Part shown: positions 28,632 through 49,829 of the stretch, piece by piece
How the letters are laid out: each line of letters begins with the position of its first letter
Position numbering within the stretch: the stretch's first letter is position 1
Assembly: GCA_014055525.1 (NCBI GenBank)
Contig: WIAH01000019.1
Span: 1 to 64,000 of the forward strand
Source: Nitrospira sp. CR1.3
GTDB taxonomy: Bacteria > Nitrospirota > Nitrospiria > Nitrospirales > Nitrospiraceae
Reading direction: 5' to 3'
DNA length: 64,000 nt
Translations under genes and position numbers: made by a program
Notes under the pieces: model-generated
What the model saw: the letters and a program-made list of their open reading frames with translations, nothing else
Database searches by the model: none
Told to the model about the DNA's origin: nothing

Positions 28632-28686
28632 GCCCACAGGCATCATCAGATGCCGTGGGCTCTGTTCGAAAAGAACGCTGGCCTCA
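28632..28686 (-). ncRNA. Leader RNA element, copy 1 (GAGGCCA-N16-GAGCCC), upstream of fecI
   Basis: Read on the minus strand: GAGGCCA, a 16-nt spacer in which GTTC (positions 3-6) pairs with GAAC (12-15), then GAGCCC opening a long hairpin (GCCCAC + GGCAT pairing with ATGCC + GTGGGC across a 1-nt bulge). The hairpin is followed by ATTTTCGTTTT, so it looks like an intrinsic terminator 27 nt before the fecI ATG. Four other copies in the window keep the two boxes and the 16-nt spacing with different stem bases. Confidence 0.75.
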
Positions 28687-28707
28687 GGGATTGCGCTTAT
28701 TTGATAT

Positions 28708-28722
28708 TGAGAATTGGTTTCA
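28708..28722. promoter_or_regulatory. Fur-type 7-1-7 site upstream of fecI
   Basis: TGAGAAT-T-GGTTTCA, an imperfect inverted repeat with the Fur 7-1-7 layout (E. coli core TGATAAT-n-ATTATCA). It is 21 bp from the leader element and matches the site at 36415-36429 at 13 of 15 positions. Confidence 0.65.
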
Positions 28723-28889
28723 GATTGCGATCATACCGCCATTGGCTATCAGATGTCCAGCCCCGCCGGTCAATCCGTTGATCTGCCAACACGACGGCCG
28801 AAAACTGGGGAGACCACAAATAGCAGGCGCGCTAGAGGTGGGGGAATGGTCGATTCATACGTCCTCTATTTATACAGGACCCCGATGGA

Positions 28890-29330
28890 ATGCCGTATCG
28901 CTTGAACCACAGCAGACAACGCAACCTCATTCTTGCCATCTTGGCAGAACGGGATCATGCCAGCGCTCGAGATTTGCACGGTGTATTGGCCGAACAAGGG
29001 CATCGCGTCTCCCTGGGAACCGTGTACCGGAACATGAGACTCTTCTGTAAGATGGGTTTGGCCGAGGCTCGTTACTTCGGCGATCAAGTCCAATATGATT
29101 ACACCGCCTCAAAAGGGCGCCATGATCATTTGATTTGCACTTTATGCGGCCAGATTGTGGAATTCGACGATCCGGAGATCGGACGGCTGCGACGAGCCGT
29201 CGCGGAGACTCACGGTTTCAGCTTGTTGAAAGAGAAACTGGACCTCTACGGACTCTGTGCGGTTTGTCGTGAACGGAAAGGGCCCCGGCCAGTCCGTCAA
29301 GGGGTTTTGAGACCGGCGGCTTTGACATAG
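28890..29330 (+). CDS. fur: Fur-family metal-responsive repressor
   Basis: 146-aa Fur protein. The N-terminal winged helix (RNLILAILAERDHASARDLH, VSLGTVYRNMRLFCKMGLAE) is followed by the dimer domain with KGRHDHLICTLCGQIVEFDD (His and the first CxxC), and LDLYGLCAVCRERKGP supplies the second CxxC, a structural zinc site. It could be Fur, PerR or Zur; its position divergent from a Fur-box-controlled fecI operon favours iron. An AGGA lies upstream of the ATG. The 137 bp after the gene hold a near-palindrome (CGCGCATGCATGTGCG at about 29362-29377) and no other feature. Confidence 0.9.
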   Translation: MPYRLNHSRQRNLILAILAERDHASARDLHGVLAEQGHRVSLGTVYRNMRLFCKMGLAEARYFGDQVQYDYTASKGRHDHLICTLCGQIVEFDDPEIGRLRRAVAETHGFSLLKEKLDLYGLCAVCRERKGPRPVRQGVLRPAALT

Positions 29331-29467
29331 CCACCGGAGCCTCTTTCACGTCAACCGACCACGCGCATGCATGTGCGTCAATCCATCATCTTGCGGAGGA
29401 TCTCCATAAGTCAGGCGCGTCGTGGCCTATTATTGTGGAGCTCTGGGGCTTTTGGCATGGAGACTTT

Positions 29468-29632
29468 CTACGGAACCTCCGAGCTGTCCACGGAGACGAC
29501 CGTTCCTCTATTGTCCGCTGCGATCGTCCCCATCCACACCGCTGCAATAGCCCCGACAAGCATCCCCAGCGCCACTGCCAGACTGATGAAGACCGCGAAT
29601 TCGCCGTCGCATCGGGATGCATCATGGTTCAT
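29468..29632 (-). CDS. 54-aa single-pass membrane protein of the small iron operon
   Basis: Short gene with a strong Shine-Dalgarno (GAAGGAGG, 7 nt before the ATG). One hydrophobic helix spans about residues 12-38 (FAVFISLAVALGMLVGAIAA). A short polar N-terminus has one Cys and a polar tail ends in SSEVP. It is the last of five close genes on the minus strand (30835 to 29468) that follow a Fur-type site and a leader RNA. No family recognised. Confidence 0.7.
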   Translation of the reverse strand: MNHDASRCDGEFAVFISLAVALGMLVGAIAAVWMGTIAADNRGTVVSVDSSEVP

Positions 29633-29649
29633 GTCTGGTCCTCCTTCAT

Positions 29650-29820
29650 TCAGAATCCGGATGCCGAGGGGACGGATGGGATCGGATTCTTTGCGGACCG
29701 CGCCTCATCGACCGCTAACGCGCTCTGGGTGATCCAATAACCGCAATCGGCGCAGGCCCAAAAGGCCCCGGTCTGAAACAGGCGATGACCTCGGCAACGA
29801 GGGCAGTGACGTACTTTCAT
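29650..29820 (-). CDS. 56-aa zinc-ribbon protein
   Basis: Two CxxC knuckles (HCPRCRGHRLF, Cys7/Cys10, and WACADCGYWI, Cys23/Cys26) form a compact zinc ribbon, followed by a polar tail. GGGGAG lies 7 nt before the ATG. The gene is 16 bp from the next small gene upstream and 17 bp from the one downstream. Such ribbons bind zinc, and sometimes nucleic acid or iron; no specific function is recognised. Confidence 0.72.
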   Translation of the reverse strand: MKVRHCPRCRGHRLFQTGAFWACADCGYWITQSALAVDEARSAKNPIPSVPSASGF

Positions 29821-29836
29821 CGTGCGACTCCCCTTT

Positions 29837-30043
29837 TCAATGGCAGATATGCACGTTGGATGTCGGTTTGAGCGCCAGCGCGTGATTCAACGCAGACTGT
29901 TTCAGCATGGCGGCCAGTCGTCCGATCGACTCCGCAAACAGCACGAACTCCTCCCGCTCAAAATGGAGCGTGACGGAACCATAGGTCACATGAAGTTTTC
30001 CACATCCGCACAAGACCAGTTTCGTCTGCCCGTCACCTTGCAT
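29837..30043 (-). CDS. 68-aa soluble protein with LCGCGKLHV motif, function unknown
   Basis: GGAGGAGG lies just before the ATG. The sequence has LVLCGCGKLHVTYGSVTLHF (two Cys at 12 and 14), a central FVLFAESIGRLAAML helix and a His-containing tail ending NVHICH. It has no membrane segment. Third gene of the small iron operon. I do not recognise a family; the Cys-Gly-Cys and His residues would suit metal binding. Confidence 0.68.
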   Translation of the reverse strand: MQGDGQTKLVLCGCGKLHVTYGSVTLHFEREEFVLFAESIGRLAAMLKQSALNHALALKPTSNVHICH

Positions 30044-30126
30044 AGCCTCCTCCTTGGATTCTCGGATTGTTGATTTGAATGACTCACATTGGTCTCCGAC
30101 CCCGTTCCGAGGCTGCCTCTGCCAGG

Positions 30127-30639
30127 CTATACCGGCAAGTATTCTCCTTTGGCGGCCATTTCGGTTTCCGTCGACGGGACGCCTTCGGCGAGGTGAAGCC
30201 GGTTCAGCGCCACGAGATGGCGGATGGCCGCCAGGTCGTGATCGATGAAACCATGCGTGAATCGCAGCCGCAACACACCCCCGCCGTCGATGACGAAGGT
30301 GCGACAGCGCGGCGACGGCTCTTCGGCGACAACACCGAACATCCGATGGAGCCGACCGCAGGGGTCCGCCATGACCGGCGTGCGCGGTGTCTCTTCTTGA
30401 TCATTCCAGGCGCGATGGAAGGGCCGCGCACCTGAGATGGCGATCAGGAAGCCGACGCCGATCCGGCGAAACTCCTCTGTCTGACGATCGAGCGTCCCCG
30501 CCGCCACAATGCCGGGATAGGGCAGGAAGCAGATGACCGCCACGCGACCCAGAAATTGTTTGCCGGACAGGTACGTGAGCCTCCCATCCACCAGGGCCGG
30601 CGCGCGAAAATTCAACATGTTTGTGCCCTGTCGATTCAT
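30127..30639 (-). CDS. Peroxiredoxin-like (AhpC/TSA fold) protein lacking the usual peroxidatic Cys
   Basis: 170-aa redoxin-fold protein: NFRAPALVDGRLTYLSGKQF, VAVICFLPYPGIVAAGTLDR, then FLIAISGARPFHRAWNDQ and VMADPCGRLHRMFGVV. In ordinary peroxiredoxins a Cys follows the FxPxxxTxxC stretch; here the corresponding segment reads PYPGIVAAGTLD with no Cys, so peroxidase activity is doubtful. Two other Cys remain (in ADPCGRL and SPRCRTF). AGGAG lies 7 nt before the ATG. Second gene of the small iron operon, 25 bp after a zinc-ribbon gene. It may be a binding or regulatory relative of AhpC. Confidence 0.75.
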   Translation of the reverse strand: MNRQGTNMLNFRAPALVDGRLTYLSGKQFLGRVAVICFLPYPGIVAAGTLDRQTEEFRRIGVGFLIAISGARPFHRAWNDQEETPRTPVMADPCGRLHRMFGVVAEEPSPRCRTFVIDGGGVLRLRFTHGFIDHDLAAIRHLVALNRLHLAEGVPSTETEMAAKGEYLPV

Positions 30640-30664
30640 CGTAAATCTCCTTTGATTGAGCGAT

Positions 30665-30835
30665 TCATTTGTACGCGCCTCTCTTCAACGGATGGTTCTC
30701 CATGCGAGGAGTCGGTGGCAGATTGCGGCAATGCCACCCACAGTTCACACAGCGCAGTCCCCCATCCGGCCCGTAGTAATCCAGCACTTTGTCGACGACC
30801 ACCAACCCGCCGCACTTCTGACACATTCCGTTCAT
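30665..30835 (-). CDS. 56-aa zinc-ribbon protein heading the small iron operon
   Basis: Two CxxC knuckles (MCQKCGGLV, Cys5/Cys8, and LRCVNCGWHC, Cys29/Cys32 with an extra Cys36) form a zinc ribbon. The start at 30835 has AAGGA 7 nt upstream; an in-frame ATG at 30862 directly abuts a GGAGG and is less likely. It is the first gene after the Fur-type site (31052-31066) and leader copy 5 (30897-30950). No specific function is recognised. Confidence 0.72.
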   Translation of the reverse strand: MNGMCQKCGGLVVVDKVLDYYGPDGGLRCVNCGWHCRNLPPTPRMENHPLKRGAYK

Positions 30836-30896
30836 CGTCAATCCTTTCGTTCGAAATCTCATCCTCCTTTTCCCGTAGCGGGCAGGCCAAGAATAA

Positions 30897-30950
30897 AGCC
30901 CAAGGCATCCTGGGATACCTTGGGCTCCGGTCGCGAAGACCTCTGGCCTC
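30897..30950 (-). ncRNA. Leader RNA element, copy 5, upstream of the small iron operon
   Basis: Minus strand: GAGGCCA, 16-nt spacer with GGTC (3-6) pairing GACC (12-15), GAGCCC, then hairpin GCCCAAGGTATCC / GGATGCCTTGGGC with one mismatch, followed by TTTATTCTT. It lies 62 nt before the zinc-ribbon ATG. The 304-bp gap 30836-31139 otherwise holds only the Fur-type site. Confidence 0.72.
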
Positions 30951-31051
30951 GTTGTGGTTCTGGACGTTACCGAGCCACCCGGGATTCCTTTTCAGGAGAA
31001 ATCGTTCGTGGCGCACGTCCTGAGAGCATGGCGACCGTTATTACATGATAC

Positions 31052-31066
31052 TGAGTTAAGTTCTCA
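31052..31066. promoter_or_regulatory. Fur-type 7-1-7 site upstream of the small iron operon
   Basis: On the minus strand TGAGAAC-T-TAACTCA, inside a longer inverted repeat (GATACTGAG at 31047 facing CTCAATATC at 31063-31071). It shares the half GATATTGAGAAC with the site before fecI at 36415. Confidence 0.65.
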
Positions 31067-31139
31067 ATATCATCTATTGAGCTGATCTGTCAAGCCCTAT
31101 TCTTTGGAATCCCCGATTATTTTTTTCTGGTTGAAACCT

Positions 31140-31892
31140 TCACGTTCGCAGGCCCCCCATCAGGGTCAGGATCATGGAGGTCACGAACATGAGGCTGATG
31201 CCGATCAGGATGCCGAAAGCGACTTGCACCCTTCTGGTTGCCGTATAGGAAATCGCAGTGAGCGAGAGAATGACATACAAGAGTGACCCTGCGGCGAGGG
31301 TATAAAATGCGATCGACAGGTATGGTGAAACCCCCTGCCCGCTCAGCAAAGTCCCGATACAGGTCGGAGCGCCAGCCAGGAGGCCGAGGAGCAATACATC
31401 CCTCCATTGCACCGGGGTTTTCCCCGCAGCGCCGACAATGCCGAACCCCTCTGTGCCGTTGTGCAGTGCAAATCCGGCCACCAGCAGGAGGCTGAGCGCC
31501 CACTCGCCGTTGGCATAACTGGCGCCGATCGCCAGCCCTTCACCCAGATTGTGAAAGCCCATGCCCAGGGCGATCATATAAGGAAGAGACAGCAGTTTTG
31601 CTGCGTGATGACTCCCCAGGATGTGGCTGGCCTCAAGCTTGACGAGCCCGACGAGGCTCAGACCAAGGCCCCCGAGAAACACCATCCAGGAGAGCAGGTC
31701 GCGAGCCCCGCTGAGTTCGACCGCTTCGTGCATCAGGTCGAAGAAGAGGTAGAGCAGCACACCGGTGGCGACGCCGATCAGCCCGCCTTCCCAGGATCGC
31801 GGCAGCACTTTCCCCAGCAACAGTGCGGCAGCGATTCCCAAGTAGACGGGAATGACGCCCGCGATCACGCCTAAACCGACCAGGCCCAACAT
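31140..31892 (-). CDS. zupT: ZIP-family divalent metal transporter (ZupT-like)
   Basis: 250-aa membrane protein with eight predicted helices. The metal-site helices are IALGMGFHNLGEGLAIGASY (helix 4, HNxxEG) and LLVAGFALHNGTEGFGIVGA (helix 5, HNxxEG), the hallmarks of ZIP transporters. A His-rich cytosolic loop is short (GSHHAAK). It would import Fe2+, Zn2+ or Mn2+. It follows the receptor at 32060-34627 on the same strand after 167 bp containing a short-word repeat, and has no clear Shine-Dalgarno. Co-regulation with iron uptake is likely from position only. Confidence 0.88.
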   Translation of the reverse strand: MLGLVGLGVIAGVIPVYLGIAAALLLGKVLPRSWEGGLIGVATGVLLYLFFDLMHEAVELSGARDLLSWMVFLGGLGLSLVGLVKLEASHILGSHHAAKLLSLPYMIALGMGFHNLGEGLAIGASYANGEWALSLLLVAGFALHNGTEGFGIVGAAGKTPVQWRDVLLLGLLAGAPTCIGTLLSGQGVSPYLSIAFYTLAAGSLLYVILSLTAISYTATRRVQVAFGILIGISLMFVTSMILTLMGGLRT

Positions 31893-32022
31893 GGATGTCT
31901 TGTACCAGAACAGCCTGTGAAGACGAAAGATGCTCCCTCAGCGACATAGCCGCTACCAGTAAGACGGATGAGCCGCGTGAAACCGCATCTCGGCCTCCGA
32001 TGGATTGCTCGTTTCTACCATC

Positions 32023-32059
32023 TGTCTCGCTTTTCCCGCTTGTCCCGCTCGTCTCGCTC
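32023..32059. repeat. Short-word intergenic repeat (TCTCGC/CCCGCT words)
   Basis: The words CTCGCTTTTCCCGCTTGTCC and CGCTCGTCTCGCTC follow each other directly before the receptor stop codon. Only one clear arm is visible. It resembles the other spacer repeats of this window in its word structure. Confidence 0.4.
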
Positions 32060-35802: not shown

Positions 35803-36321
35803 TCACTCCGCAAGAGTGAGTGAATCGAGCATGGCGCAGGACTGCTCCAGCGCGCGCATGAGCAGCTTTTCGACGCCGCTCTCGGAGATGCGCATGCGGG
35901 CGGCAATTTCGCGGTAGGTATACCCATAAACTTTGTAGAGGAGAAAGGCTTCTTTGGTGCGCGGGGGGAGACTGTCGATCGCATGGAGAAACACCTGCAG
36001 CCGCTCCTTGCCGAGCAGAACGCGCTCTTGAGAAGGCATCGCGCAAGGCACGTCCATAGCGGCATCGAACGAATCGGCATGTGGAGGCCGGCTGTGATCT
36101 TTCCGCAGGTAGTCAATCGCCAGGTTGGCCGCAATCCTGTGCAAGAGCGCCCGTGGATGCTCAACAGCCTGCTGATTCACCAGGCCGAGCAATCTGAGGT
36201 AGGTCTCCTGCACGAGGTCCGCTGCGGTGTCCCGAGAGTTGACCATCGCGACAAGACGCCGCGTCAGTTCGTCGCGGTGCCGGTGAAAGAGATCCTCGAT
36301 CTGCGCGTACGAGAGCGTCAT
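35803..36321 (-). CDS. fecI: FecI-type ECF sigma factor
   Basis: 172-aa ECF sigma factor with region 2 (AADLVQETYLRLLGL, ALLHRIAANLAIDYLRK) and region 4 (LPPRTKEAFLLYKVYGYTYR, EIAARMRISESGVEKLLMRA). The start at 36321 (MTLSYAQIEDLF) lies only 17 nt after the base of the leader hairpin; an in-frame ATG at 36354 is inside that hairpin. Upstream are leader copy 2 and a Fur-type site. It probably drives the receptor at 32060-34627. Confidence 0.92.
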   Translation of the reverse strand: MTLSYAQIEDLFHRHRDELTRRLVAMVNSRDTAADLVQETYLRLLGLVNQQAVEHPRALLHRIAANLAIDYLRKDHSRPPHADSFDAAMDVPCAMPSQERVLLGKERLQVFLHAIDSLPPRTKEAFLLYKVYGYTYREIAARMRISESGVEKLLMRALEQSCAMLDSLTLAE

Positions 36322-36338: not shown

Positions 36339-36394
36339 GCCCGCGGCATCGCACGATGCGCGCGGGCTCTGTCTGAAAAAGACTCTGGCCTCAG
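36339..36394 (-). ncRNA. Leader RNA element, copy 2, upstream of fecI
   Basis: Minus strand: GAGGCCA, 16-nt spacer with GTCT (3-6) pairing AGAC (12-15) around TTTTC, GAGCCC, then hairpin GCCCGCG + GCATC / GATGC + CGCGGGC, immediately followed by TTTTTC. This is the most terminator-like copy, and the fecI ATG is 17 nt beyond it. Confidence 0.78.
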
Positions 36395-36414
36395 TGACAG
36401 CGTATTGATGATAT

Positions 36415-36429
36415 TGAGAACTGGTCTCA
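36415..36429. promoter_or_regulatory. Fur-type 7-1-7 site upstream of fecI
   Basis: TGAGAAC-T-GGTCTCA, an inverted repeat with outer TGAGA/TCTCA perfect. It sits 20 bp from the leader element, almost the same distance as at the fecI gene at 28604. Confidence 0.68.
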
Positions 36430-38098: not shown

Positions 38099-38487
38099 TC
38101 ATCGTCGATGCCTCCGCCCTCTTAGAGATTCTGCTCAACACTCCGTCGGGGGATGCAGTCGCATCGCGGCTCTTTTCCGATGAGGAAGCCCTCCATGCGC
38201 CTCACTTGCTTGATGTCGAAATTGCGCAGGTGCTCCGGCGGTATGCCTTGATCGGTGGCCTGGAGCCCGCACGCGGGCTCCAGGCCATGGAGGACCTCAT
38301 CGATCTTCCGATCACCCGCTATCCGCACGACCTGTTGCTTCCAAGGATCTGGGAACTCCGGCATGATCTCACCGCCTATGATGCCGCTTATGTCGCCCTT
38401 GCCGAGGCGCTCGCCGCGCCGCTCGTGACTCGCGATGCCCGGCTCGCATCGGCCGGTGGTCACCGCGCTCACATCGAACTCGTGTAA
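38095..38487 (+). CDS. VapC/FitB-type PIN-domain toxin
   Basis: 130-aa PIN ribonuclease with a GTG start coupled to the antitoxin stop. Acidic residues are in MIIVDASALLEILL (Asp5), HLLDVEIAQVL (Glu), LTAYDAAYVALAEAL (Asp) and LVTRDARLASAGG (Asp), the full PIN set. Its 3' end overlaps the convergent cysC 3' end by 19 bp. Complete and probably active. Confidence 0.9.
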   Translation: MIIVDASALLEILLNTPSGDAVASRLFSDEEALHAPHLLDVEIAQVLRRYALIGGLEPARGLQAMEDLIDLPITRYPHDLLLPRIWELRHDLTAYDAAYVALAEALAAPLVTRDARLASAGGHRAHIELV

Positions 38488-39077
38488 GGACGAAACTCTT
38501 CTGCAATGCGGAGCAGAATTGTCTCGACGCTCTGTGTGGGTGATTCGCGATCTGTGTCCACGACCACGTCGGGACACACCGGTTCTTCGTACGGATCCGA
38601 GAGGCCTGTGAGGTGTTGCAGTTCACCCCGTTGCGCCCTGGCATAGAGGCCTTTGGGGTCGCGTTCCATGCAGACGGCGAGTGGACAACGGACGTAGACT
38701 TCGACGAAGCGGCCGATGGTCTTCCGGGCCTCGGCACGGGCGTCCGCATAGGGCGCAATCGCGGCCACAATCGCGATGCCGGCGGCGCGCGTGATGCCCG
38801 CGGCGAGATGCGCGATGCGGCGGACGTTCTCCAGCCGATCCTCGCGCGAGAAGCCGAGATCTTTGGTGAGCGAGCGGCGCAGCTCATCGCCGTCCAGCAC
38901 GTGGACCGGTAAACCCTGCTGACGCAGTTCTTCCGCGAGCAGCCATGCGAGCGTGGTCTTCCCCGCTCCCGGTAAACCGGTGAACCAGATGGTAAAACCT
39001 TGTCGGGTCGAACTCGTTCCGTTCCAGCTTGAGGGGCCTGCCGCTTCAATGAGAGAGCGCTCAGGGGGTTCTGTCAT
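38469..39077 (-). CDS. cysC: Adenylylsulfate (APS) kinase
   Basis: 202-aa kinase making PAPS from APS and ATP. P-loop GLPGAGKTTLAWLLAEEL (about residues 34-51), APS-site motif DGDELRRSLTKDLGFSREDR (split by normal spacing) and FVEVYVRCPLAVCMERDPKG are all present. It stands alone, without cysDN. A TPR-sulfotransferase gene lies 450 bp upstream on the same strand, so the PAPS may feed sulfation rather than sulfate reduction; this is inference. The 3' end overlaps the PIN toxin gene by 19 bp. Confidence 0.92.
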   Translation of the reverse strand: MTEPPERSLIEAAGPSSWNGTSSTRQGFTIWFTGLPGAGKTTLAWLLAEELRQQGLPVHVLDGDELRRSLTKDLGFSREDRLENVRRIAHLAAGITRAAGIAIVAAIAPYADARAEARKTIGRFVEVYVRCPLAVCMERDPKGLYARAQRGELQHLTGLSDPYEEPVCPDVVVDTDRESPTQSVETILLRIAEEFRPYTSSM

Positions 39078-39173
39078 TATTGTTCCATTGTTGGCGAAGA
39101 GGTGGTGCCGTTGACCCCTTCAGAATGTTGGTGTAACCTCACACCTATCAGTGTGAACGACAAGGTTGATGAT

Positions 39174-39377
39174 ATGCACGCTGTAAAAAAGAGCAAGACC
39201 TCGCGCCTTCGAAATCTGGCTGGGAGATCCCGTCGGCGAGTCAAGCACCGCCCTGCCCCTGTGTGGCAAGAGCTGCTCAGGATCTCGAAGGCCATTCCTC
39301 ACGCTGATCTGCATAAACTGCCGACGGATCTGGCAGCGCATCATGATCATTATTTGGCAGGTGGCCACGTTTCTTGA
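39174..39377 (+). CDS. Antitoxin-like protein of a decayed toxin-antitoxin pair
   Basis: 67-aa protein: basic N-terminus (VKKSKTSRLRNLAGRSRRR) and a C-terminal half of the kind found upstream of PIN toxins (WQELLRISKAIPHADLHKLP, then TDLAAHHDHYLAGG). AAGG lies 8 nt before the ATG at 39174. Its stop overlaps the TTG start of the toxin remnant at 39374. It may still be expressed although its partner is broken. Confidence 0.65.
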   Translation: MHAVKKSKTSRLRNLAGRSRRRVKHRPAPVWQELLRISKAIPHADLHKLPTDLAAHHDHYLAGGHVS

Positions 39378-39466
39378 GGCACGTCTTTGCCGATACGGCC
39401 TACTGGCTGGCCCTCACCACGGATCGTCACTTCGAGCAAGAAGGGTTTGTCGCGTTGATGCGATAG
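39374..39466 (+). pseudogene. PIN toxin remnant with large internal deletion
   Basis: A 30-codon frame, TTG start. The first 13 residues (RHVFADTAYWLAL) are a PIN N-terminus with its first Asp, and the rest (TTDRHFEQEGFVALMR) is a PIN C-terminus with its last Asp; about 100 codons in between are missing. The join is in frame and ends with a normal stop. The deleted product cannot fold as a PIN domain. Confidence 0.75.
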
Positions 39467-39498
39467 GCCTATCATCTTCCCCGCCGTAACCCAGCACC

Positions 39499-39530
39499 TC
39501 CACTTTCCGACTTTGCTCACTTTCTAACTT
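39499..39530. repeat. Short-word intergenic repeat (ACTTTC words)
   Basis: CCACTTTCCGACTTTGCTCA then CTTTCTAACTTT, directly before the TPR-sulfotransferase stop. The same words appear in the nuo spacers at about 52405-52422 and 61185-61207. Confidence 0.45.
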
Positions 39531-41330
39531 TCACACTACTTCCGCAAAGACGCTTTCTAGCCCCGGCAGATAGTCCCCATAGTGTTTCCACCGACCGACG
39601 GACTTGGAATAGATCGGCTGGCGGACCTGCCAGCGGCTCGGCGTCTGAACCGCTCGTTCTTGTTGGTGGAAATTGAGACAGCGGTCATCCCATGGGGCGC
39701 CGAGAAAGTTGATGAGGCGCCGCGCCTGCCCTTCGAGATCGGCGACCACCTCTTCATAGTGGATCGTCAGGATCGTCAACGGGAGTACGGATTTCCAATG
39801 GTCCATCAGTCGACGTTCCTGCGCGAGAAAGAAGGCCAGGTCCTCGAAGTCCGTGGCATAGCGCTGGTCGGCATTGAAATTCTCCATCCAGATCGAGAGC
39901 GCATTATCCCGCGCGGCCCGCCGGCAGTGGAGGACGCGGGCATTGGGGAACAGCAGCGCGGCGAAGGCCAGGTGAAAGTAATTGAGCGGCTGTTTGTCGC
40001 TGATGCGTGGGCAATCGGGTGGCGCATTCCGCCGGAGCGCCCGCAGATATTCATGGGCCAACAGCCGGCTGGCCCTCTCGTCCAGGTGCGAGGCCGCTTG
40101 CCAGGGCGTTTTCTGGAGCCCGGCCAGCGATTGCACGGCCAAGCGGGCCAAATCGGGCAATTCGCCGGCCCCGTGCATGCCGGGGTGAGCGGAGAGAATT
40201 TGTTCGATGAGTGTGGTACCTGACCGCGGCAATCCCACGATAAACACCGGCTGATCCGTCCCGATCCCGAACCGCTTGCGCTCCGCAAAGAACTCCGTGG
40301 TATAGGTCGCGAGGATCCCGTCCCCCTTCGCCTGCAGGGCCGCCCGGTTCAAGGGCCCGGCCTTCCGCCGGCGGGCCGCGTTGGCCACCAATCCCGCGTG
40401 GGCTGCCTGTTCATACTGCTGACGGCGGTCGAAATACTTGGCGAGCCCATAGCCCACGAGCGCCTGGGCCTCATCAGGCGTCTCTCTCCGTGTCAGCGCC
40501 TCCTGCGCATGGGCCACCCACGGGGCCGCCTCGGTCTCATCCTTCACGAAAGTCAGATACTGCCCGAGCGCCAGCCCATGGCCCGGCTGCCGTTCGAGGA
40601 CCTTGAGATAGCACGTCGGGGCTAAGTCGGCCCGGCCCAAATCTTCCATGGCATGCCCCAGGCCGAACCAGGCGTCGAGATCATCCGGATTGCCCCTGAG
40701 AGAGGACCGGAACAGGGCTTCCGCCTGGTCCACCTGGCCGCAGTCGGAGAGTGCCTGCGCCAACCGATGGCGCGCCCGCGAGGAGTCCGGCGCATGAGCC
40801 GCGGCTCGCTCGAAGCACCAGAGGGCTTCATCCAGTTGCCCGTCTTCAATCAAGAGCCCGCCCATCGCCAGATAGGTCTCGGCGCGCGTGGGCTCGATCG
40901 CAAGCGCCCGTTGCAGGCAGGCTAACGCCCGCTCCTGCTCCCCGGTCTGTTTGAGCGCGGCGCCCAAGTTATGCCAGCCATCGGCATAGTCGGCCTTGAG
41001 ACCGACGGCCTGACGGAAACAGCGCACCGCCGCCGGCCAGTCACGGGACAGCACCCACACCCGTCCGAGATCGGACCAGGTGCGGGGATCGTGAGGCGCC
41101 AGTTCCGTCGCGCGGCGGGCAGCCGCACGAGCGGCGCCCAGCTCACCCTGCCGCGCATAAATCTGGCCGAGATAACGGTGCGCATCCGGATCGTCCGGCG
41201 TCCTGGCCAGCCGGTCTTCGCACAGGCGCAGGGCGAAGACCGCATCATCGGAGCCCAGCGCGGCGTTGATGGAATCCAGCAGGGATGCTGGAGGAGGATG
41301 CCGGTCGGTTGTCGTTGTGGACGGCAACAT
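39531..41330 (-). CDS. TPR-repeat sulfotransferase
   Basis: 599-aa protein. The N-terminal half (about residues 20-300) is an array of TPR units (for example HRYLGQIYARQGELGAARAA, WHNLGAALKQTGEQERALAC). The C-terminal half is a PAPS-dependent sulfotransferase with the 5'-phosphosulfate loop FIVGLPRSGTTLIEQILSAH (about residue 362) and the 3'-phosphate region CRRAARDNALSIWMENF. Proteins of this build (sulfotransferase_3 type) sulfate unknown acceptors. cysC nearby on the same strand would supply PAPS. The start ATG at 41330 is divergent from the next toxin-antitoxin pair. Confidence 0.88.
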   Translation of the reverse strand: MLPSTTTTDRHPPPASLLDSINAALGSDDAVFALRLCEDRLARTPDDPDAHRYLGQIYARQGELGAARAAARRATELAPHDPRTWSDLGRVWVLSRDWPAAVRCFRQAVGLKADYADGWHNLGAALKQTGEQERALACLQRALAIEPTRAETYLAMGGLLIEDGQLDEALWCFERAAAHAPDSSRARHRLAQALSDCGQVDQAEALFRSSLRGNPDDLDAWFGLGHAMEDLGRADLAPTCYLKVLERQPGHGLALGQYLTFVKDETEAAPWVAHAQEALTRRETPDEAQALVGYGLAKYFDRRQQYEQAAHAGLVANAARRRKAGPLNRAALQAKGDGILATYTTEFFAERKRFGIGTDQPVFIVGLPRSGTTLIEQILSAHPGMHGAGELPDLARLAVQSLAGLQKTPWQAASHLDERASRLLAHEYLRALRRNAPPDCPRISDKQPLNYFHLAFAALLFPNARVLHCRRAARDNALSIWMENFNADQRYATDFEDLAFFLAQERRLMDHWKSVLPLTILTIHYEEVVADLEGQARRLINFLGAPWDDRCLNFHQQERAVQTPSRWQVRQPIYSKSVGRWKHYGDYLPGLESVFAEVV

Positions 41331-42164: not shown

Positions 42165-44891
42165 CTAGAACGTCAGCCGCAGCATGCCGATCACGTGCCG
42201 CGGGGGTCCGAAATGGTTGAACCCAGAATAGTAGAAAGGCCCTTCGACGTACCGGGCATCGAAGAGATTGTTGAGATTCAATTGTAAGCTCAACCATTTG
42301 AGCGGTGCATAGATGGCAAAGAGGTCTGCCCTCGTGTAACCGGGATATGTTTGATTCGCGAACCCTGGAATAGCTGAGACTTCACCCCGGTAGTAGACCA
42401 CCGCGCCAAGCTTCAACCCCTTGGTGAGCAGTTCCGAGAAATCGTAGCTTCCGAAAGCACTGACGGTGTGCGTCGGCGCATTAAACGCCCTTGTCCCGAC
42501 GATATCGGGATCGTTGCTCGCCGTGAACTTTGTATCTAGATAGGTATAGGCGAGGTTCACTTCCAACTTGGGGATGAGCGCGCCCCGCGCTTCGAACTCA
42601 AAGCCTTGATTACGCTGGCTCTGGCCACCAATGACGAAGAAAGCTGGACTGGCCGGGTCAGGAGTGGCGACGTTGTCCAGCTCGGTACGGAAGAGCGCAG
42701 CAGTCAGGCGAACTCGGCCACCGAGCGGTTCCCACTTACTTCCGACCTCGACGGTCTTTCCGGTCATGGGATCCAATAATTCGCCGCTCTTGACCAGGCC
42801 GAAGTTAGGCTGGAAGCTTTCGCCATAGGAGGCATAGACGTTGAGTCCCTCAACGATGCGCTGGGATATGCCGATCTGCGGCGTCAGGGCACTATCATTA
42901 AGCCCGCTAGTTCTGTTTCCGGAAGCAGCGAAGTTAGCCTGTGTGATGAAATTCTGCCGGAGGGCGACCATCAGCGTCGTGCCAGCGAAAGGCCGAAGCA
43001 GGCCTTGCAGGAAGACGCCGGTTTGATAATAGCGTGCGTCTCTAAAAAAATTTGTTGCTGGATCGGTGAACCCCGGTGGGAATGCTAGATTATTATCTGG
43101 GCTGGCGATATTTCCCGTCCCAAGAAACGGAAAAGCCGTACGGTAAGCTAGCTGACGGCCGATAGAATAGTCCATGCCAGCGGCCACAGAGCTGATGTTT
43201 CCAAAGAACGAAAACTCCTTGGTGAGGTTCACTTCTCCCGCAAAGGATTCCCGTTTGAAGTCACGGCCGTAGGCGTAGATGCTGAAGTTTCCGTCCGGAC
43301 CTATACCACTTATCGGGGGATAAACGTAGCCAAAGTTATATCGATAGCTCGAGTCATCATGGCTATATTGGCCTTTCACTTTGAGCCGAAAACCTTGGGC
43401 AAATTTCTTCTCGGCCTCGACGTGGACACTCTGGTAATCGATCTTCAGTGAATTGCCGTTTCCCAGTAAACTGTCCTCAATCCCAGCAGGGATTCGGCCT
43501 TCGGTATTGGTCGGTGTGCCATAGTTGCCTTTCCCCCTCAGATGCTGCACATTGCCTGTCACGGTCAGAGTGAAATCGTTCTCCGTGGCGAAACGCACAG
43601 AGGGCAGAAACGAAAACCGTTGATTGCCGGTATTGCGGAAAAACTCGGGATCATTGTTTTGAGTGAACACGAAGCGGCCGGAGAGCTGCGGGATCGTCGG
43701 CATGACGCCGTTGGCATCGAGGGTCGTCCTATAGTGTCCGTAGGAACCAGCACCGGCTTCGGCGACAACGAAGTTGTCCTTCTGCGGCGCCTTCAAGAGC
43801 CGGTTGACAAAACCTCCCGCGGCGACCAGGCCGCTTGTAAAGGAGGCAGGACCCTTAATGACCTCGATGCGTTCGTACAGGGTAGGGTCGCCGACGTAAT
43901 TGTTGAAGGCCGATAATCCATTGTCGCGGTTATAACCAGGTGATCGCACTTCTGCCTGAAAACCTCGCAGGACATAGTCGTCGGCCGAGAGCCCGGCGGT
44001 TTGATTGGTTTTTGCAAAGCCGGCGACGGCCTCTAACGCCTCGTTCTGCGTGACTGCCCGTCGCTCTCGGATGCTGTCTTTGGAAACGACACTCACCGAC
44101 ATCGGCAGCTCTTGAATCGGCGCGGGAAAGCGCAGCACCGCCTCTGACGAGACGTCGGCCTTGTAGCCGTCCGGAGAATCAACCGCCAGCGCGAACTCCT
44201 TCTTCTCCTTCACCACCACTTCCGGCACCTTCACCGGTTTCGTCTCCTCACTTGCCTGCGCCATCCCCGGAGCCACGGCTCCTTGCACGCCCGCGAGCTG
44301 AAGGGTCACGGTCCCGGCGTCCGAGAAGAAGGCCGCAAGGCCGGTGCCGGCCAACAGGCCCTTGAGTCCTTCCTCCGGCGTGTAGTCGCCCTGAAGGCCT
44401 TGCGTCGTCCGGCCATCGGCCAGTTCAGAGAGGTAGAGCAACTGCAAGTCGGTCTGCCGCGAAAAAGCCGACAGAGCAGGACGCAACTCGCCCGGCGGGA
44501 TTTCAAAATGTTGTTTTGGAGTCGCGCTGATGTCCTGCTGTGCCATAAGACGAGCAGGGCCCATAAGATTCCGGCGGCGATGGTCGGGCCAGAGGGCATT
44601 GTCGAGGGGATCAGGCTCGGGCTTGATGGCCGGAAATTTATTCCAAGGACCGAATCCCCGCTCCGGCTCGCGCGGAGGCTGGCGGTCCCGGCCCGGCTCA
44701 TCCTGCGCCATGGCCGGGTGGTACAGCCCGAGCGCCAGCGAAGAGACGCCGACGAGCAGTCCCCAGAGGAGGCGCACCCTTGAAGATCGCACCTCTGCCG
44801 CTTCCTGCTGGAGCAGCGCCGCGCAGATCCGCTCAATGGCTGTACTCTCTATTTTTGGCTTACGATCCCGCTTCACTCTGATTCGACTCAT
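42165..44891 (-). CDS. TonB-dependent siderophore receptor with STN domain and N-terminal extension
   Basis: 908-aa transducing receptor. The N-terminus is long and basic (RIRVKRDRKPK) before a hydrophobic signal segment (about residues 41-61). A Pro/Arg-rich stretch (about 63-118) with DRQPPREPERGFGPWN comes next, not usual in the family. STN (FEIPPGELRPALSAFSRQTD ... LKGLLAGTGLAAFF), VPEVVVKEKKE, the plug (PIQELPMSVSVVSKDSIRER, VIKGPASFTSGLVAAGG) and a barrel ending RHVIGMLRLTF follow. GGGGAGAAGGG precedes the ATG. Leader copy 3 lies 64 nt upstream. It probably pairs with the FecI/FecR at 47004-48690. Confidence 0.92.
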   Translation of the reverse strand: MSRIRVKRDRKPKIESTAIERICAALLQQEAAEVRSSRVRLLWGLLVGVSSLALGLYHPAMAQDEPGRDRQPPREPERGFGPWNKFPAIKPEPDPLDNALWPDHRRRNLMGPARLMAQQDISATPKQHFEIPPGELRPALSAFSRQTDLQLLYLSELADGRTTQGLQGDYTPEEGLKGLLAGTGLAAFFSDAGTVTLQLAGVQGAVAPGMAQASEETKPVKVPEVVVKEKKEFALAVDSPDGYKADVSSEAVLRFPAPIQELPMSVSVVSKDSIRERRAVTQNEALEAVAGFAKTNQTAGLSADDYVLRGFQAEVRSPGYNRDNGLSAFNNYVGDPTLYERIEVIKGPASFTSGLVAAGGFVNRLLKAPQKDNFVVAEAGAGSYGHYRTTLDANGVMPTIPQLSGRFVFTQNNDPEFFRNTGNQRFSFLPSVRFATENDFTLTVTGNVQHLRGKGNYGTPTNTEGRIPAGIEDSLLGNGNSLKIDYQSVHVEAEKKFAQGFRLKVKGQYSHDDSSYRYNFGYVYPPISGIGPDGNFSIYAYGRDFKRESFAGEVNLTKEFSFFGNISSVAAGMDYSIGRQLAYRTAFPFLGTGNIASPDNNLAFPPGFTDPATNFFRDARYYQTGVFLQGLLRPFAGTTLMVALRQNFITQANFAASGNRTSGLNDSALTPQIGISQRIVEGLNVYASYGESFQPNFGLVKSGELLDPMTGKTVEVGSKWEPLGGRVRLTAALFRTELDNVATPDPASPAFFVIGGQSQRNQGFEFEARGALIPKLEVNLAYTYLDTKFTASNDPDIVGTRAFNAPTHTVSAFGSYDFSELLTKGLKLGAVVYYRGEVSAIPGFANQTYPGYTRADLFAIYAPLKWLSLQLNLNNLFDARYVEGPFYYSGFNHFGPPRHVIGMLRLTF

Positions 44892-44954: not shown

Positions 44955-45010
44955 AGAGCCCACGACTGCTCGCGCAGCGGTGGGCTCTGGACTCGCGATC
45001 CGTTGGCCTC
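44955..45010 (-). ncRNA. Leader RNA element, copy 3, between com-like gene and receptor gene
   Basis: Minus strand: GAGGCCA, 16-nt spacer with GGAT (3-6) pairing GTCC (12-15, one U-G), GAGCCC, then hairpin AGAGCCCAC + CTGC / GCAG + GTGGGCTCT. Unlike the other copies it is not followed by a U-run, and no Fur-type site lies next to it. The receptor ATG is 64 nt further on. Confidence 0.72.
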
Positions 45011-45039
45011 TTACAGGAGTTGTCTGTCTGTGGAAGGGG

Positions 45040-45364: not shown

Positions 45365-45408
45365 CGACTGAAGACTGAAGGCGGAGGGGTGAAGGTTGAA
45401 GGGACATA
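45365..45408. repeat. Short-word intergenic repeat (GAAG/GGTTGAAG words)
   Basis: ACTGAAGACTGAAGGCGGAG then GGGTGAAGGTTGAAGGG, one arm only. Part of the 271-bp gap 45229-45499, which otherwise holds the hairpin at 45420-45447 and no gene. Confidence 0.4.
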
Positions 45409-45419
45409 TGGTTCCCTTT

Positions 45420-45447
45420 CTTCGCGCGGCATCCGTGCCGCGCGAAG
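45420..45447. terminator. Perfect 12-bp hairpin after the 152-aa exported protein gene
   Basis: CTTCGCGCGGCA / TGCCGCGCGAAG around TCCG. Read on the minus strand it follows the stop at 45500 by about 50 nt and is followed by AAAGGG rather than Us. Probable transcription stop or processing hairpin. Confidence 0.5.
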
Positions 45448-45499
45448 ACAAGATCGGGACAGATCGAGCAGGCCGGAAAGGTCTCTGAGAGCAGGAGTG

Positions 45500-45958: not shown

Positions 45959-46011
45959 CGTCATTCTCCTTTGTGTGTTTTCCACTCGACCAGAGAGCCT
46001 TTCCTGTTCAC

Positions 46012-46917
46012 TCATCCATCCAAGCGATAACTGATCGGAACCAGAATGGTAATCTGTGGTTTCTCTAACTGATATTTCATGGTCAGGGGCGAGGCTTTCC
46101 TCATGACAACCAGGGCCTCTTGATCCAACAGCGCGTGCCCTGAGCTTTCCGCTACCCGCACATCGCCCACCGTGCCATCGGACCGGATGACCGCCAAGAC
46201 GACGACTTTACCCTCCCAATGGTTGGTTCTCGCCATGGCCGGATAGCGCTTCAATTCTTCGATCCTCTTCCAGAGCGCGTCTCTCAACCAGCCGTAGTCC
46301 GCCTGGGTCCGGCGGTACTTGACGACCCGGTGCTGGACCGCGAGATGTTCAACGGCGGGGAGATCGGGACCAGGGCTCACCGTTTCCTTCTCCACGACCG
46401 GCTCGGTGCGCGACTGGACCGGATGCGATACGGCGGCAACGGCCTGGTGTTCCACGACTGCCGCATGTTCCACCGGGGCCGCATCTTGAATCGCCACCTC
46501 CTGCGTGACAGCTGTCGGGCTTTCGAGGGCTGTCACAGCCGGCCGCTCGATGACGGCGGCCACAGGAGTCGCCGTAGACTGCTCGATCGGCGTCGCCACA
46601 TCCCTTGTCTGTTGCGGTACGGTCTCAACCGTTTCCACAGTGTGGCGAGACTCGACGGTCCGTTGGACCTGGCGCGGTTGAACGGGAACCGGTGTGGGAG
46701 GACTTGGGGCAGGCGGCACCGGCTCGACGGTCTGTGGCGCTTCCACCATCGAGACTTCCCAGGTGAAGGGCGGGAGCGGGACGGGTTTCTCGATCTCGGC
46801 GATCAAGAATAGTCCGCACCAGGCAGCCAGTGCGTGACAGAGTAACGACACCGTCCAACTATGGGCGTGATGCAATTCGCCGCTGCTGGTCATCCGGCTG
46901 AACTCCACGGTCGTCAC
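46012..46917 (-). CDS. tonB: TonB energy transducer
   Basis: 301-aa TonB with a membrane helix (about residues 23-40), motif PPFTWEVSMVEAPQ, a Pro/Val/Glu-rich spacer and the C-terminal TonB domain (LKRYPAMARTNHWEGKVVVL ... SGHALLDQEALVVM ... VPISYRLDG). It uses a GTG start with GAGGGGAA 10 nt upstream. Same cluster as fecI/fecR at 47004-48690 and a second tonB at 48696, so this cluster carries two different TonB proteins for one receptor. Confidence 0.88.
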   Translation of the reverse strand: MTTVEFSRMTSSGELHHAHSWTVSLLCHALAAWCGLFLIAEIEKPVPLPPFTWEVSMVEAPQTVEPVPPAPSPPTPVPVQPRQVQRTVESRHTVETVETVPQQTRDVATPIEQSTATPVAAVIERPAVTALESPTAVTQEVAIQDAAPVEHAAVVEHQAVAAVSHPVQSRTEPVVEKETVSPGPDLPAVEHLAVQHRVVKYRRTQADYGWLRDALWKRIEELKRYPAMARTNHWEGKVVVLAVIRSDGTVGDVRVAESSGHALLDQEALVVMRKASPLTMKYQLEKPQITILVPISYRLDG

Positions 46918-47003
46918 GATCGAGAACTTCCCCTCAATAAGACAAACGGACGACCTGCCGAACCGGCCGCCCTAGCTAGAAGACGAATCAGACTGACAAA
47001 ACC

Positions 47004-48047
47004 TCACCTACGAGAGGAAGAAATTCTCAGTTCCTCCATCACGATCAAGTCCGCGTTGACACGGGTCAATTTCACCGGCGCGGTGGCCTCCACAGCTCGC
47101 AGGAACCCTTCGCGATCGTGCAGGCCGAACCGGCCGCTGATCTTCAGCTCGCCGAGATGGGGATCGAGGACGCGTATCTCCACTTGTTGATACCGTCCGA
47201 GTTCGCGTATGACCTCGGCCAAGGGACGCTGCTCGAACATAATTTGGCCCACCGTCCAGGCGGTAGAAGCAGGAATATCGACCATCGCCACAGGAGAGAG
47301 CCCGCCCTCTTCACCATAACTAACCCGCTCACCGGCCGTGAGGACGCGTCCTCGCTGCGTTTGCGCTCGCTCAATCGAACTTTGGACTTCGACTGCCCCT
47401 TCAACCACTGTGACGGTTACCTGCTCCGGCTCCCGTCGCACGGCAAACTGCGTGCCGATATCCCGGACCATTCCACCCCCTGCCACAACCTCGAAAGGGC
47501 GCCTCGTTTCGTGCGCCACGACAAACAGCGCTTCTCCCTTGTGAAGCATCATGGTTCTGCGGAATAGGGACGTTTCCGCGGTCACTGCCGTCTCGGTATT
47601 CAGGACCATCCGGGACCCGTCCGGAAGAGCTACTGTCTGCTGTTCGCCCTTGGCCGTTCGATACTCCGTGATCTCTGCTCGACCGGCAAACCACCAGCCG
47701 CCCGCGATCACTAAGAGAAGAGAGGCAGCTAGCGCCGTCGAAAGGCCGTAGACGCTCCAGCGTCTTTTACATGGGACCGACGGGTTCTCTGCCAACTTCA
47801 ATTCGGCATCGGCTCGGTCTAATTCTTGCTCGAGCAACGGCCCTGCTTCGTCAAGTTCGCTCCAGAGTCCGGTTAGCTTGTCGAACTCCTCCCTGTGGGA
47901 TTGCTGTTTCTTAAGCCAGGCCTGAAACCGCCTCCGGTCTTCGTCCGTCGCGTCGCCGGACCGTAGACGCACGAACCAACGCAGCGATTCGTCTGCCGCC
48001 GATGGCTGGTCATGCGGTCCGGATCGGCCCGTGCTTGCTCTCTCCAT
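47004..48047 (-). CDS. fecR: FecR-type anti-sigma/sigma-activating regulator
   Basis: 347-aa regulator: N-terminal sigma-binding part (ESLRWFVRLRSGDATDEDRR, then RFQAWLKKQQ), membrane helix at about residues 103-121, FecR domain (TAKGEQQTVALPDGSRMVLN, ALFVVAHETRRPFEVV) and C-terminal STN-like part (KLTRVNADLIVMEELR). GGAGAG is 8 nt before the ATG at 48047. It follows fecI by 133 bp, a longer gap than usual, with no gene in it. Confidence 0.9.
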   Translation of the reverse strand: MERASTGRSGPHDQPSAADESLRWFVRLRSGDATDEDRRRFQAWLKKQQSHREEFDKLTGLWSELDEAGPLLEQELDRADAELKLAENPSVPCKRRWSVYGLSTALAASLLLVIAGGWWFAGRAEITEYRTAKGEQQTVALPDGSRMVLNTETAVTAETSLFRRTMMLHKGEALFVVAHETRRPFEVVAGGGMVRDIGTQFAVRREPEQVTVTVVEGAVEVQSSIERAQTQRGRVLTAGERVSYGEEGGLSPVAMVDIPASTAWTVGQIMFEQRPLAEVIRELGRYQQVEIRVLDPHLGELKISGRFGLHDREGFLRAVEATAPVKLTRVNADLIVMEELRISSSRR

Positions 48048-48180
48048 GTCTGGAACTCTCCGGAGGCTTGTGATACCTATCTCTGTCGTAAGACGTAGGA
48101 ACGACAGGAAACCTGACACCGGAGCTTGTCGATTTCCTAGTGATGGTTGGGGGCATGAAGGATCGCCGGAGGACTCTTGC

Positions 48181-48690
48181 TCAGGCCTCTTCAACCCGTC
48201 GTCGACAATGGCCCATTGCTTTCATCACGTGCTTTTCCACCATGTTCTTGGAAATGCCCAGCCGCCTGGCAATTTCCGCATGGGGTAGTTCCTTGAACTT
48301 GTGTAGTAGAAAAACCTGTCGGCATTTTGGGGGCAGCTCCTCGATCGCGGCATAGAGCAGCCGCACCCGCTCCTTGGCCTCGACTTCGCAGTCCTGACGG
48401 GGGATCGTGGACGGCATCTCTTCGATCGCATCCAACTGAGTCGTCCCCTCTGATCGAACTCGTTGACGGCGAAACAGGTCGACCGTGAGATTCAGGGCAG
48501 TCTTGTAGAGAAAGGCGCGAGGCTGGACGACAGTCGTTAAATCTTTTTGTGACCGGAGGCGGACAAATGTATCTTGCGCCACGTCGGCCGCCTGCTCGCG
48601 ACAACCTAGCTTGGCGGTGAGAAATCGCAGCAGCTCGCCGTAGTACTGCTGATAGAGAGAGGTTTCGAGCGCGAGCCGCTGGTCCTGCAT
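48181..48690 (-). CDS. fecI: FecI-type ECF sigma factor
   Basis: 169-aa ECF sigma factor: region 2 (AADVAQDTFVRLRSQ, AFLYKTALNLTVDLFRRQR) and region 4 (LPPKCRQVFLLHKFKELPHA, EIARRLGISKNMVEKHVMKA). It starts 5 bp after the stop of tonB at 48696. Unlike the other two fecI genes here, it has no leader element directly upstream; the leader precedes the tonB gene instead. Confidence 0.92.
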   Translation of the reverse strand: MQDQRLALETSLYQQYYGELLRFLTAKLGCREQAADVAQDTFVRLRSQKDLTTVVQPRAFLYKTALNLTVDLFRRQRVRSEGTTQLDAIEEMPSTIPRQDCEVEAKERVRLLYAAIEELPPKCRQVFLLHKFKELPHAEIARRLGISKNMVEKHVMKAMGHCRRRVEEA

Positions 48691-48695
48691 CGGAC

Positions 48696-49535
48696 TTATT
48701 CCAATCGGTAGCTTATGGGAACGGACATGGCGACCCGATCACTTTGCAACCCGTGCGCGAGCGTCAATGGCGACGCGGCGAGAAGCGCCTCCAGCGCAGC
48801 TCGATCCAGCGCCGGATATCCGGAGCTTTCCTCAATCCGGAGATTCACCAATCGACCGTCACTCTCCACGCTGACCATCACCACCACACGACCCTGCATG
48901 TGGTTGGTTTTCGCCAACCTCGGATAGGTCTTCACCTGCTCCAGCCGGGCCCGGAGCTGATCCATCAGCCATCCATAGTCGGGACGTACGGGTCTATGGA
49001 CCGCCGGCTGTACGATCGGCTGCGGGCGTTGCAACACGGCGAGATGCTCCAGTTCGGTCGCGACCTGAACCAGGCTTGACTCGCTCCGGCTCTCGACTTC
49101 ATGAGGCGGGAGGACCGATTGTGAGGGACTGGGAACCGACATCGCAGCGGCAGTGTCAGCATCTACCGACTGGGCGCCGGACCTGGGAGAAACCTGTTGC
49201 CGAGCCGACGTTCGCGCAGACATCAAGGCTGGTTGCGAGATCTCAGAATCCTGAATCGGTTTTATTGACTGCGGTAGAGACTGGGAGGCCGGTTCCGCTG
49301 ACGGCTCATCAACCGCCTGCCTTGTGTCCACCGCTGAGGATGTGGCGGACTCTTGGGATTCCGGACTGTCGGCCACATACACATCCGCCTGCGGCGCGGC
49401 CATCAAGGACACGTCCCATCGGAAGGGCTCCTTTTGCAACTGAACCGGCAATGACGGCGCGTGTAGATTGAACGCGACCGCGAGGGTGAGAATCGTTCCG
49501 TGAAATAACGCTGAAATGCTCCAGGCGAGACGCAT
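48696..49535 (-). CDS. tonB: TonB energy transducer heading a fecIR operon
   Basis: 279-aa TonB with a membrane helix (about residues 6-22), motif EPFRWDVSLMAAPQ, a Ser/Gln/Pro-rich spacer and C-terminal domain (VKTYPRLAKTNHMQGRVVVM ... SGYPALDRAALEALLAASPL ... VPISYRLE). The ATG at 49535 has AAGGAG close upstream. It is the first gene after the Fur-type site (49876) and leader copy 4 (49774-49829); 238 bp of non-coding sequence, in which I see nothing, separate leader and ATG. Confidence 0.88.
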   Translation of the reverse strand: MRLAWSISALFHGTILTLAVAFNLHAPSLPVQLQKEPFRWDVSLMAAPQADVYVADSPESQESATSSAVDTRQAVDEPSAEPASQSLPQSIKPIQDSEISQPALMSARTSARQQVSPRSGAQSVDADTAAAMSVPSPSQSVLPPHEVESRSESSLVQVATELEHLAVLQRPQPIVQPAVHRPVRPDYGWLMDQLRARLEQVKTYPRLAKTNHMQGRVVVMVSVESDGRLVNLRIEESSGYPALDRAALEALLAASPLTLAHGLQSDRVAMSVPISYRLE

Positions 49536-49773
49536 CGTCTCCTTCGTTTCATATGCTTCTTCGCTGTTGGTCGGCGACAATCTTGGCGGAGAAACTGAGC
49601 CCAACTCCAGCCGGTAACACGAAACGACCCTCTCCTGTACTTCAGGTCCGAGACCTGCACGGCGCCGGGACGCGAGCAGAGTATTGTGCCCATGAGACTT
49701 GGATCTTCTCGTCTCAGGTCGCCCGGATAGTTCTTGTTGCAGTCCGATCACGATGCTTCGCACCAAATAGAAA

Positions 49774-49829
49774 AGCCCGAAGTCGCCGGATGGCGACCTC
49801 GGGCTCTGGACTTGAAGTGCTCTGGCCTC
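49774..49829 (-). ncRNA. Leader RNA element, copy 4, upstream of tonB-fecI-fecR
   Basis: Minus strand: GAGGCCA, 16-nt spacer with GCAC (3-6) facing GTCC (12-15; three of four pairs) or alternatively ACTT/AAGT, GAGCCC, then hairpin GCCCGA + GTCGCC / GGCGAC + TCGGGC (one internal mismatch), followed by TTTTCTATTT. The next gene starts 238 nt further on. Confidence 0.72.

Follow-up and report, generated by a model that had tools for sequence, protein, structure and literature searches.

A Com-linked leader RNA at iron-uptake genes of Nitrospira: a candidate protein-controlled transcription attenuator

Five copies of a structured element in an iron-uptake cluster

We examined a 64,000-nucleotide (nt) stretch of Nitrospira sp. 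CR1.3 (contig WIAH01000019.1, positions 1 to 64,000; the window), in which a short structured leader element recurs on the minus strand before genes of iron uptake, and found that a small zinc-finger gene related to com of phage Mu accompanies this element across genomes. Taken together, the evidence suggests that iron-uptake genes of Nitrospira-type bacteria have an RNA switch under protein control that is so far undescribed. A preceding sequence-only reading had proposed five minus-strand copies, and a pattern scan recovered each of them at the place given (Table 1), followed by the genes it had named: fecI, a small Zn-ribbon gene with an AhpC-like gene, a second fecI, a TonB-dependent receptor gene and tonB. 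The exact two-box pattern matched five times in the 3.46 Mb genome, always inside the window and within one iron-uptake cluster, and a reversed control pattern had no match in the same 3.46 Mb. One more copy, the sixth, is divergent and is found on a different contig of this genome (G000:C13:256850-256917).

Each window copy reads, in order, GAGGCCA (box 1), a hairpin of 4 bp with a 5-nt loop (hairpin 1), GAGCCC (box 2), the rest of the stem of a second hairpin, and then a T-rich tract. The long second hairpin was present and paired as the earlier reading had it; its T-rich end and its nature as a terminator had gone unmentioned there. Because box 2 pairs with GGGCTY directly 5′ of the T-tract, we regard the second hairpin as an intrinsic terminator whose 5′ arm contains box 2, and the unit therefore as an attenuator. 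The minimum free energy (MFE) fold of the full-length copies contained the terminator in 5/5 cases (−25.9 to −33.6 kcal/mol). When the 29 nt through box 2 were folded in isolation, copies 1–4 adopted the same hairpin form with GGC/GCC closing pairs (−6.1 to −9.6 kcal/mol), and copy 5, in which one of the four hairpin 1 pairs is mismatched, as had already been observed, gave a weaker variant fold (−3.1 kcal/mol). Three pairs at the terminator base were constant across 71 sequences and most of the rest of the stem varied; this constancy fits a second use of box 2, and may instead reflect a preference of terminators as such, our control terminator scan being too noisy to tell. Judged from the sequence, an intrinsic terminator combined with an alternative pairing in a leader or operon gap would fit a controlled transcription attenuator.

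Distribution and conservation of the element

In agreement with the earlier view that the element has no name, Rfam 15 gave no match at curated gathering scores in the window or in nine loci of relatives, and at E ≤ 10 the only match was to a small nucleolar RNA, below its cut-off and overlapping the flank of copy 1. With no Rfam 15 match, a known riboswitch was set aside. A search of relatives with covariance models, a check proposed beforehand, yielded many further copies, standing before the same kinds of gene. Model R1, built from the five window copies, matched 144/175 same-family genomes at E ≤ 0.05 with up to eight matches per genome, and model R2, built from 73 copies, matched 134/395 genomes sampled across the phylum at E ≤ 0.001; the E-values of both are rough, as the search tool itself states. 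The family of the 175-genome set is presumably Nitrospiraceae, judging by named loci, such as those of Nitrospira metagenome-assembled genomes (MAGs), that are identical to its members. Nitrospira defluvii FP929003 had three matches. A further 80 loci, among the matches listed, had been found by pattern: 69 of them gave R1 four matches at E ≤ 0.05 (best 25.8 bits), which we took as chance, and in the other 11 R1 matched six Nitrospira loci and L124, with none at L059, L064, L096 and L110.

Fetched loci, selected by element score and spread rather than by Com and in several cases from one genome, held 76 matches, from which seven partial antisense matches were left out, giving 69 copies. GGC[C/T]A and GAGCCC were kept in 69/69 of these model-selected copies; outgroup copies were more variable, some with AAAGCCC at box 2. 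The 16-nt spacing between the boxes, reported as invariant, is so in the five window copies and fails in the family, where 33/69 copies have 16 nt and the others 8 to 21. Covariation in hairpin 1, which had been claimed from the window alone, was borne out by independent copies. Among 16-nt spacers found elsewhere than in the window, 26 are distinct; no model had been fitted to these, and 94 of their 104 possible pairs form versus 73.6 after shuffling, with 0/2000 shuffles reaching 94. The outermost pair is uninformative here, since it is G-C in 26/26 spacers. Alignment A3, fitted with R1, had 97.1% of its cells paired versus 75.0% shuffled, with both-side changes in three of the four hairpin 1 pairs. 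The hairpins thus alter their sequence and remain paired, which speaks against a DNA repeat and upholds the earlier inference of a selected RNA structure. Two other candidates were set aside, namely a strand exchange of box 1 GAGGCC with GGCTTT, seen by eye only and unsuited to copies with GGGCTC, and an ANTAR-type site, as generally described, on account of the 5-nt loop of hairpin 1 in the 16-nt form.

Com-like zinc-finger genes and other genes near the element

Copy 4 comes directly after the gene of a 62-amino-acid (aa) Com-like protein (Table 1). A profile of this protein family matched Com of phage Mu at E 9.8e-8, with 37% of residues identical across 30 aligned columns, and four cysteines, invariant in the 17-row alignment A5, align with those of Mu Com in the same Cys4 spacing. 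The Com-like protein of G338 is diverged, with a deviating first knuckle, and scored only E 8e-4. At E ≤ 0.01, PHROG 6417 (translational regulator) matched 16/20 members and PHROG gpCom 8/20; PF10122, which matched 17/395 phylum genomes, was too narrow as a Com-like probe. A search of solved structures with the Com-like protein returned nothing convincing (best E 0.16), and the predicted structure has three strands at a mean predicted local distance difference test (pLDDT) score of 76.6. Com-like relatives were present in 148/175 same-family genomes. Remnants were also seen: L184 11130-11225 has lost its cysteines, and L168 10820-10870 is a partial second copy beside an intact one. Separately, a 68-aa protein of the window (29837-30043, minus), without a Pfam match, has a CGCGKLHVTYG stretch like the first knuckle of the Com-like protein, and its cluster of open reading frames (ORFs), a family of small CxCGKL proteins, was found near elements in 13/30 genomes.

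Element and Com tend to occur together. Among the 395 genomes, 123 carried both, 11 the element only, 20 Com only and 241 neither (Fisher p 2e-66); outside the own family, the corresponding numbers were 29, 7, 17 and 232 (Fisher p 2e-21). Both tables were counted by hand, treat related genomes as trials although these are not independent, and retain weak or spurious-looking matches (element and Com of G179; elements of G226, G234, G265 and G435). Seven own-family genomes had an element and no good Com match: in G079, G062 and G148 the element lies within 3 kb of a contig start, G010 and G073 are incomplete (72% and 67%), and G069 and G134 lack a good match although they are nearly complete and their elements are not at contig edges.

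The two are also neighbors. A Com-like ORF lay on the element's strand in 25/40 fetched element loci, the one at L184 being without cysteines, and in a rough ranking of ORFs near elements (single-linkage clusters, chosen set) the Com-like cluster was present in 20/30 genomes, with the largest receptor cluster next at 17 and an HD gene at 16. Among the matches listed, 93/118 Com-like genes, in 75/79 genomes, had an element within 6 kb, always on the same strand; in 22 the element lies 35-100 nt downstream and in 44 about 3.3-3.6 kb downstream. These 118 genes exclude those from genomes without an element entry, and the element list is partial, so that neither is a complete or a random sample. 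The longer arrangement recurs at a second locus of the own genome (L329 1820-6151, contig C13), which holds, in order, com, a gene that we read as porin-like, an FMN-binding-domain gene, a membrane protein gene, the sixth element copy and an HD-domain (HD_5) gene; a Fur-box-like site was seen by eye upstream of com. At class or phylum level, Com and element lay 21-254 nt apart in 7/11 genomes (G301, G370, G296, G180, G338, G286 and G353); of the other four, G389 has the pair on different contigs, and G226, G265 and G179 have weak element matches and no pair. In the deltaproteobacterial MAG L124, where contamination is possible, a Fur box, com and, 218 nt further at the contig end, the element were seen by eye, and on another contig a porin-like gene is preceded by a full element (E 1.5e-10).

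The genes behind the element were mostly, and not only, those of iron uptake. The first downstream ORFs of the 69 copies, in clusters named by Pfam on representatives, were HD-domain (15), extracytoplasmic function (ECF) sigma factor (13), TonB receptor (7), TonB (6), AhpC-like (4), small Zn-ribbon (4), BFD-like (4) and ExbB (3), with AraC-type, cytochrome c and multicopper oxidase genes among the smaller groups; the BFD-like and Zn-ribbon names are our own suggested readings, Pfam having given no match. The description of the targets as iron-uptake genes therefore holds in that relatives carry the same gene kinds, and is too narrow in that, in the fetched set, HD-domain genes, which are not plainly iron genes, come first in number. 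In other genomes, too, relatives of the 56-aa double-CxxC protein (30665-30835) come after elements. Within 200 nt upstream, 35/69 copies have a Fur-box match in 13 or more of 19 positions, versus 56/1380 control stretches, and many copies lacking one come, by eye, after a Com-like gene or inside an operon. A Fur-family regulator gene (window 28890-29330, plus) is divergent from copy 1, and the iron cluster also contains an adenosine 5′-phosphosulfate (APS) kinase and a tetratricopeptide repeat (TPR)-sulfotransferase gene (window 38469-41330, minus).

Table 1. Element copies, the Com-like gene, downstream genes and Fur-box-like sites, in window coordinates.
Feature	Position	Strand	Remarks
Element copy 1	28632..28686	minus	box 1 (5′ end 28685), hairpin 1, box 2, intrinsic terminator; precedes fecI
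Element copy 2	30897..30950	minus	precedes small Zn-ribbon and AhpC-like genes
Element copy 3	36339..36394	minus	precedes second fecI
Element copy 4	44955..45010	minus	Com-like gene on one side, TonB-dependent receptor gene on the other
Element copy 5	49774..49829	minus	precedes tonB
Com-like Cys4 zinc-finger protein, 62 aa	45040..45228	minus	proposed RNA-binding partner; Pfam Zn_ribbon_Com E 1.2e-5
fecI-type ECF sigma factor behind copy 1	28089..28604	minus	
Small Zn-ribbon protein behind copy 2, 56 aa	30665..30835	minus	double-CxxC; no Pfam match
AhpC/TSA-family protein behind Zn-ribbon gene	30127..30639	minus	
fecI-type ECF sigma factor behind copy 3	35803..36321	minus	
TonB-dependent receptor with STN domain behind copy 4	42165..44891	minus	
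tonB behind copy 5	48696..49535	minus	start codon inferred
Fur-box-like site upstream of copy 1	28702..28721	minus	by eye and consensus scan
Fur-box-like site upstream of copy 2	31046..31074	minus	by eye; 12 of 19, under the cut of 13
Fur-box-like site upstream of copy 3	36409..36428	minus	by eye; 12 of 19, under the cut of 13
Fur-box-like site upstream of copy 5	49871..49893	minus	by eye and consensus scan

Proposed control of the attenuator and its alternatives

We propose that each copy is probably a protein-dependent transcription attenuator opened by the Com-family zinc-finger protein. A promoter, often with a Fur-box-like site through which iron may be signaled, would make a leader RNA in which box 1, the short hairpin and box 2 can close as a 29-nt hairpin with GGC/GCC closing pairs. 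As box 2 also forms the 5′ side of the stem in a stable intrinsic terminator, polymerase would stop before the gene unless helped. The Com-family protein, encoded in the same regulon and often just upstream of an element, would bind box 1, hairpin and box 2, and so hold box 2 off the terminator and let transcription continue. Since the terminator is the stable default and its 5′ arm overlaps the presumed binding site, antitermination is the simplest direction. We also suggest, more tentatively, that Mu-type zinc fingers may serve as dedicated iron-uptake antiterminators in Nitrospira-type bacteria and beyond, a Com regulon forming an RNA-level gate behind Fur with a Cys4 site that perhaps senses metal; we find this plausible rather than probable.

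One study describes Mu Com as an RNA-binding translational activator that is proposed to melt an inhibitory stem. By SELEX (in vitro selection), a Com protein is reported there to favor either a pair of GAG(N)2CC cores around a short stem or a loop in which CC(N)2-3GAG occurs and a GA is essential; contrary binding results by others are mentioned as well (PMC6483171). In our element, GAG(N)1CC is found in both boxes of 54/69 copies and CC(N)1GAG at box 2 of 52/69, each with a spacing one base off the published motif, and the hexamer CCAGAG, which is also present in the Com-bound test RNAs I and IA of that study (PMC6483171), occurs in 58/69. The resemblance of the boxes to the Com motif is inexact, and we consider it suggestive. 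Mu com/mom shares with the present loci a small Cys4 zinc finger of the same family, encoded just upstream of the regulated gene, and, with the inexact match just described, an RNA site with GAG and CC cores at a short stem beside an inhibitory stem; unlike here, Mu acts on translation and on one gene, whereas our element has a terminator stem, several copies per genome and another box spacing.

Other known systems are alike in geometry. From general background, the ribonucleic antiterminator (RAT) hairpins of BglG, SacY and LicT, of about 29 nt, overlap the 5′ arm of an intrinsic terminator, and in the window copies box 1 to box 2 likewise measures 29 nt with box 2 inside the terminator stem; RAT has other sequence boxes, however, and a CAT-PRD protein instead of a zinc finger. 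Riboswitches of the HMP-PP (thiS) type, again from general background, also have few conserved bases about one hairpin merged with a terminator, but our element has no Rfam match and is linked to the gene of an RNA-binding-type protein.

Several observations weigh against antitermination by the Com-like protein. Hairpin 1 as such appears within the full-length MFE fold in copies 1 and 2 only; pairs with both-side changes in A3 number 11 versus a shuffle mean of 10.0, a value that 141/500 shuffles reach; and the GGC/GCC pairing has no covariation support, because it never varies. The boxes are spaced by one N versus two in the SELEX motif, and GAG is missing from box 1 in 15/69 copies and from box 2 in some outgroup copies. 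On the protein side, Pfam Zn_ribbon_Com matched only 7/20 Com-like members, NCBIfam models 0/20, and tblastn of the Com-like protein against phages gave no match. As to linkage, there are the 20 genomes with Com alone and the 11 with the element alone, and, among the matches listed, 25/118 Com-like genes that lack an element within 6 kb; the linkage could merely reflect that com is one gene of iron operons.

The alternative that survives best, though we think it unlikely, is that the Com-like protein works with the opposite sign, stabilizing the terminator fold and turning the operons off in negative feedback. It can claim the same linkage data (25/40 loci, and 93/118 genes near an element among the matches listed), and in four of those 93 close pairs the nearest element is no more than 250 nt upstream of com, which would permit autoregulation; however, the terminator is already the MFE structure unaided, the presumed site overlaps its 5′ arm, and Mu Com is described as an activator melting an inhibitory stem (PMC6483171). 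We likewise doubt that box 1, hairpin and box 2 form the tiny aptamer of a small-ligand riboswitch for metal, haem or a siderophore-derived compound, with the Com-like gene a mere regulon member. Short invariant boxes about one variable hairpin joined to a terminator, and mainly iron-related targets, would suit such a riboswitch, but the conserved part is very small and unmatched in Rfam, and Com-like genes tracking the element across lineages would be left unexplained; the strong linkage of the element to a Com-family gene makes a switch operated by a protein likelier than a riboswitch. It is also improbable that the element is controlled in trans by something else, whether an RNA-binding protein other than Com or a small RNA, with Com as a neighbor: in its favor are the few genomes with an element and no good Com match, among them the nearly complete G069 and G134, and the small CxCGKL family in 13/30 genomes, but in the set examined no family near elements was common to as many genomes as the Com-like one. 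Unregulated intrinsic terminators or a terminator-like DNA repeat, to which the stable MFE terminator of 5/5 copies would be owed, can hardly be credited given the position ahead of one gene and behind a promoter or another gene, the conserved boxes outside the terminator stem, the hairpins that vary in sequence and stay paired, and the strong tie to one protein family.

Controlled attenuators are already known as a kind; in Rfam 15 and in the openly licensed literature searched, mostly titles and abstract openings, we found neither this element, nor a Com regulon, nor this RNA family with a Com-type partner described. A 62-aa protein and a 60-nt RNA would suffice to test the proposed antitermination. 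If it is true, an RNA family outside Rfam would gain a candidate protein partner from conserved gene linkage, in nitrite-oxidizing Nitrospira-type bacteria, and Com, known from the mom operon of phage Mu, would also be a regulator encoded in the chromosome that acts on several targets in each genome, and on transcription instead of translation. Iron would then be controlled in these bacteria on two levels, by Fur and by attenuation.

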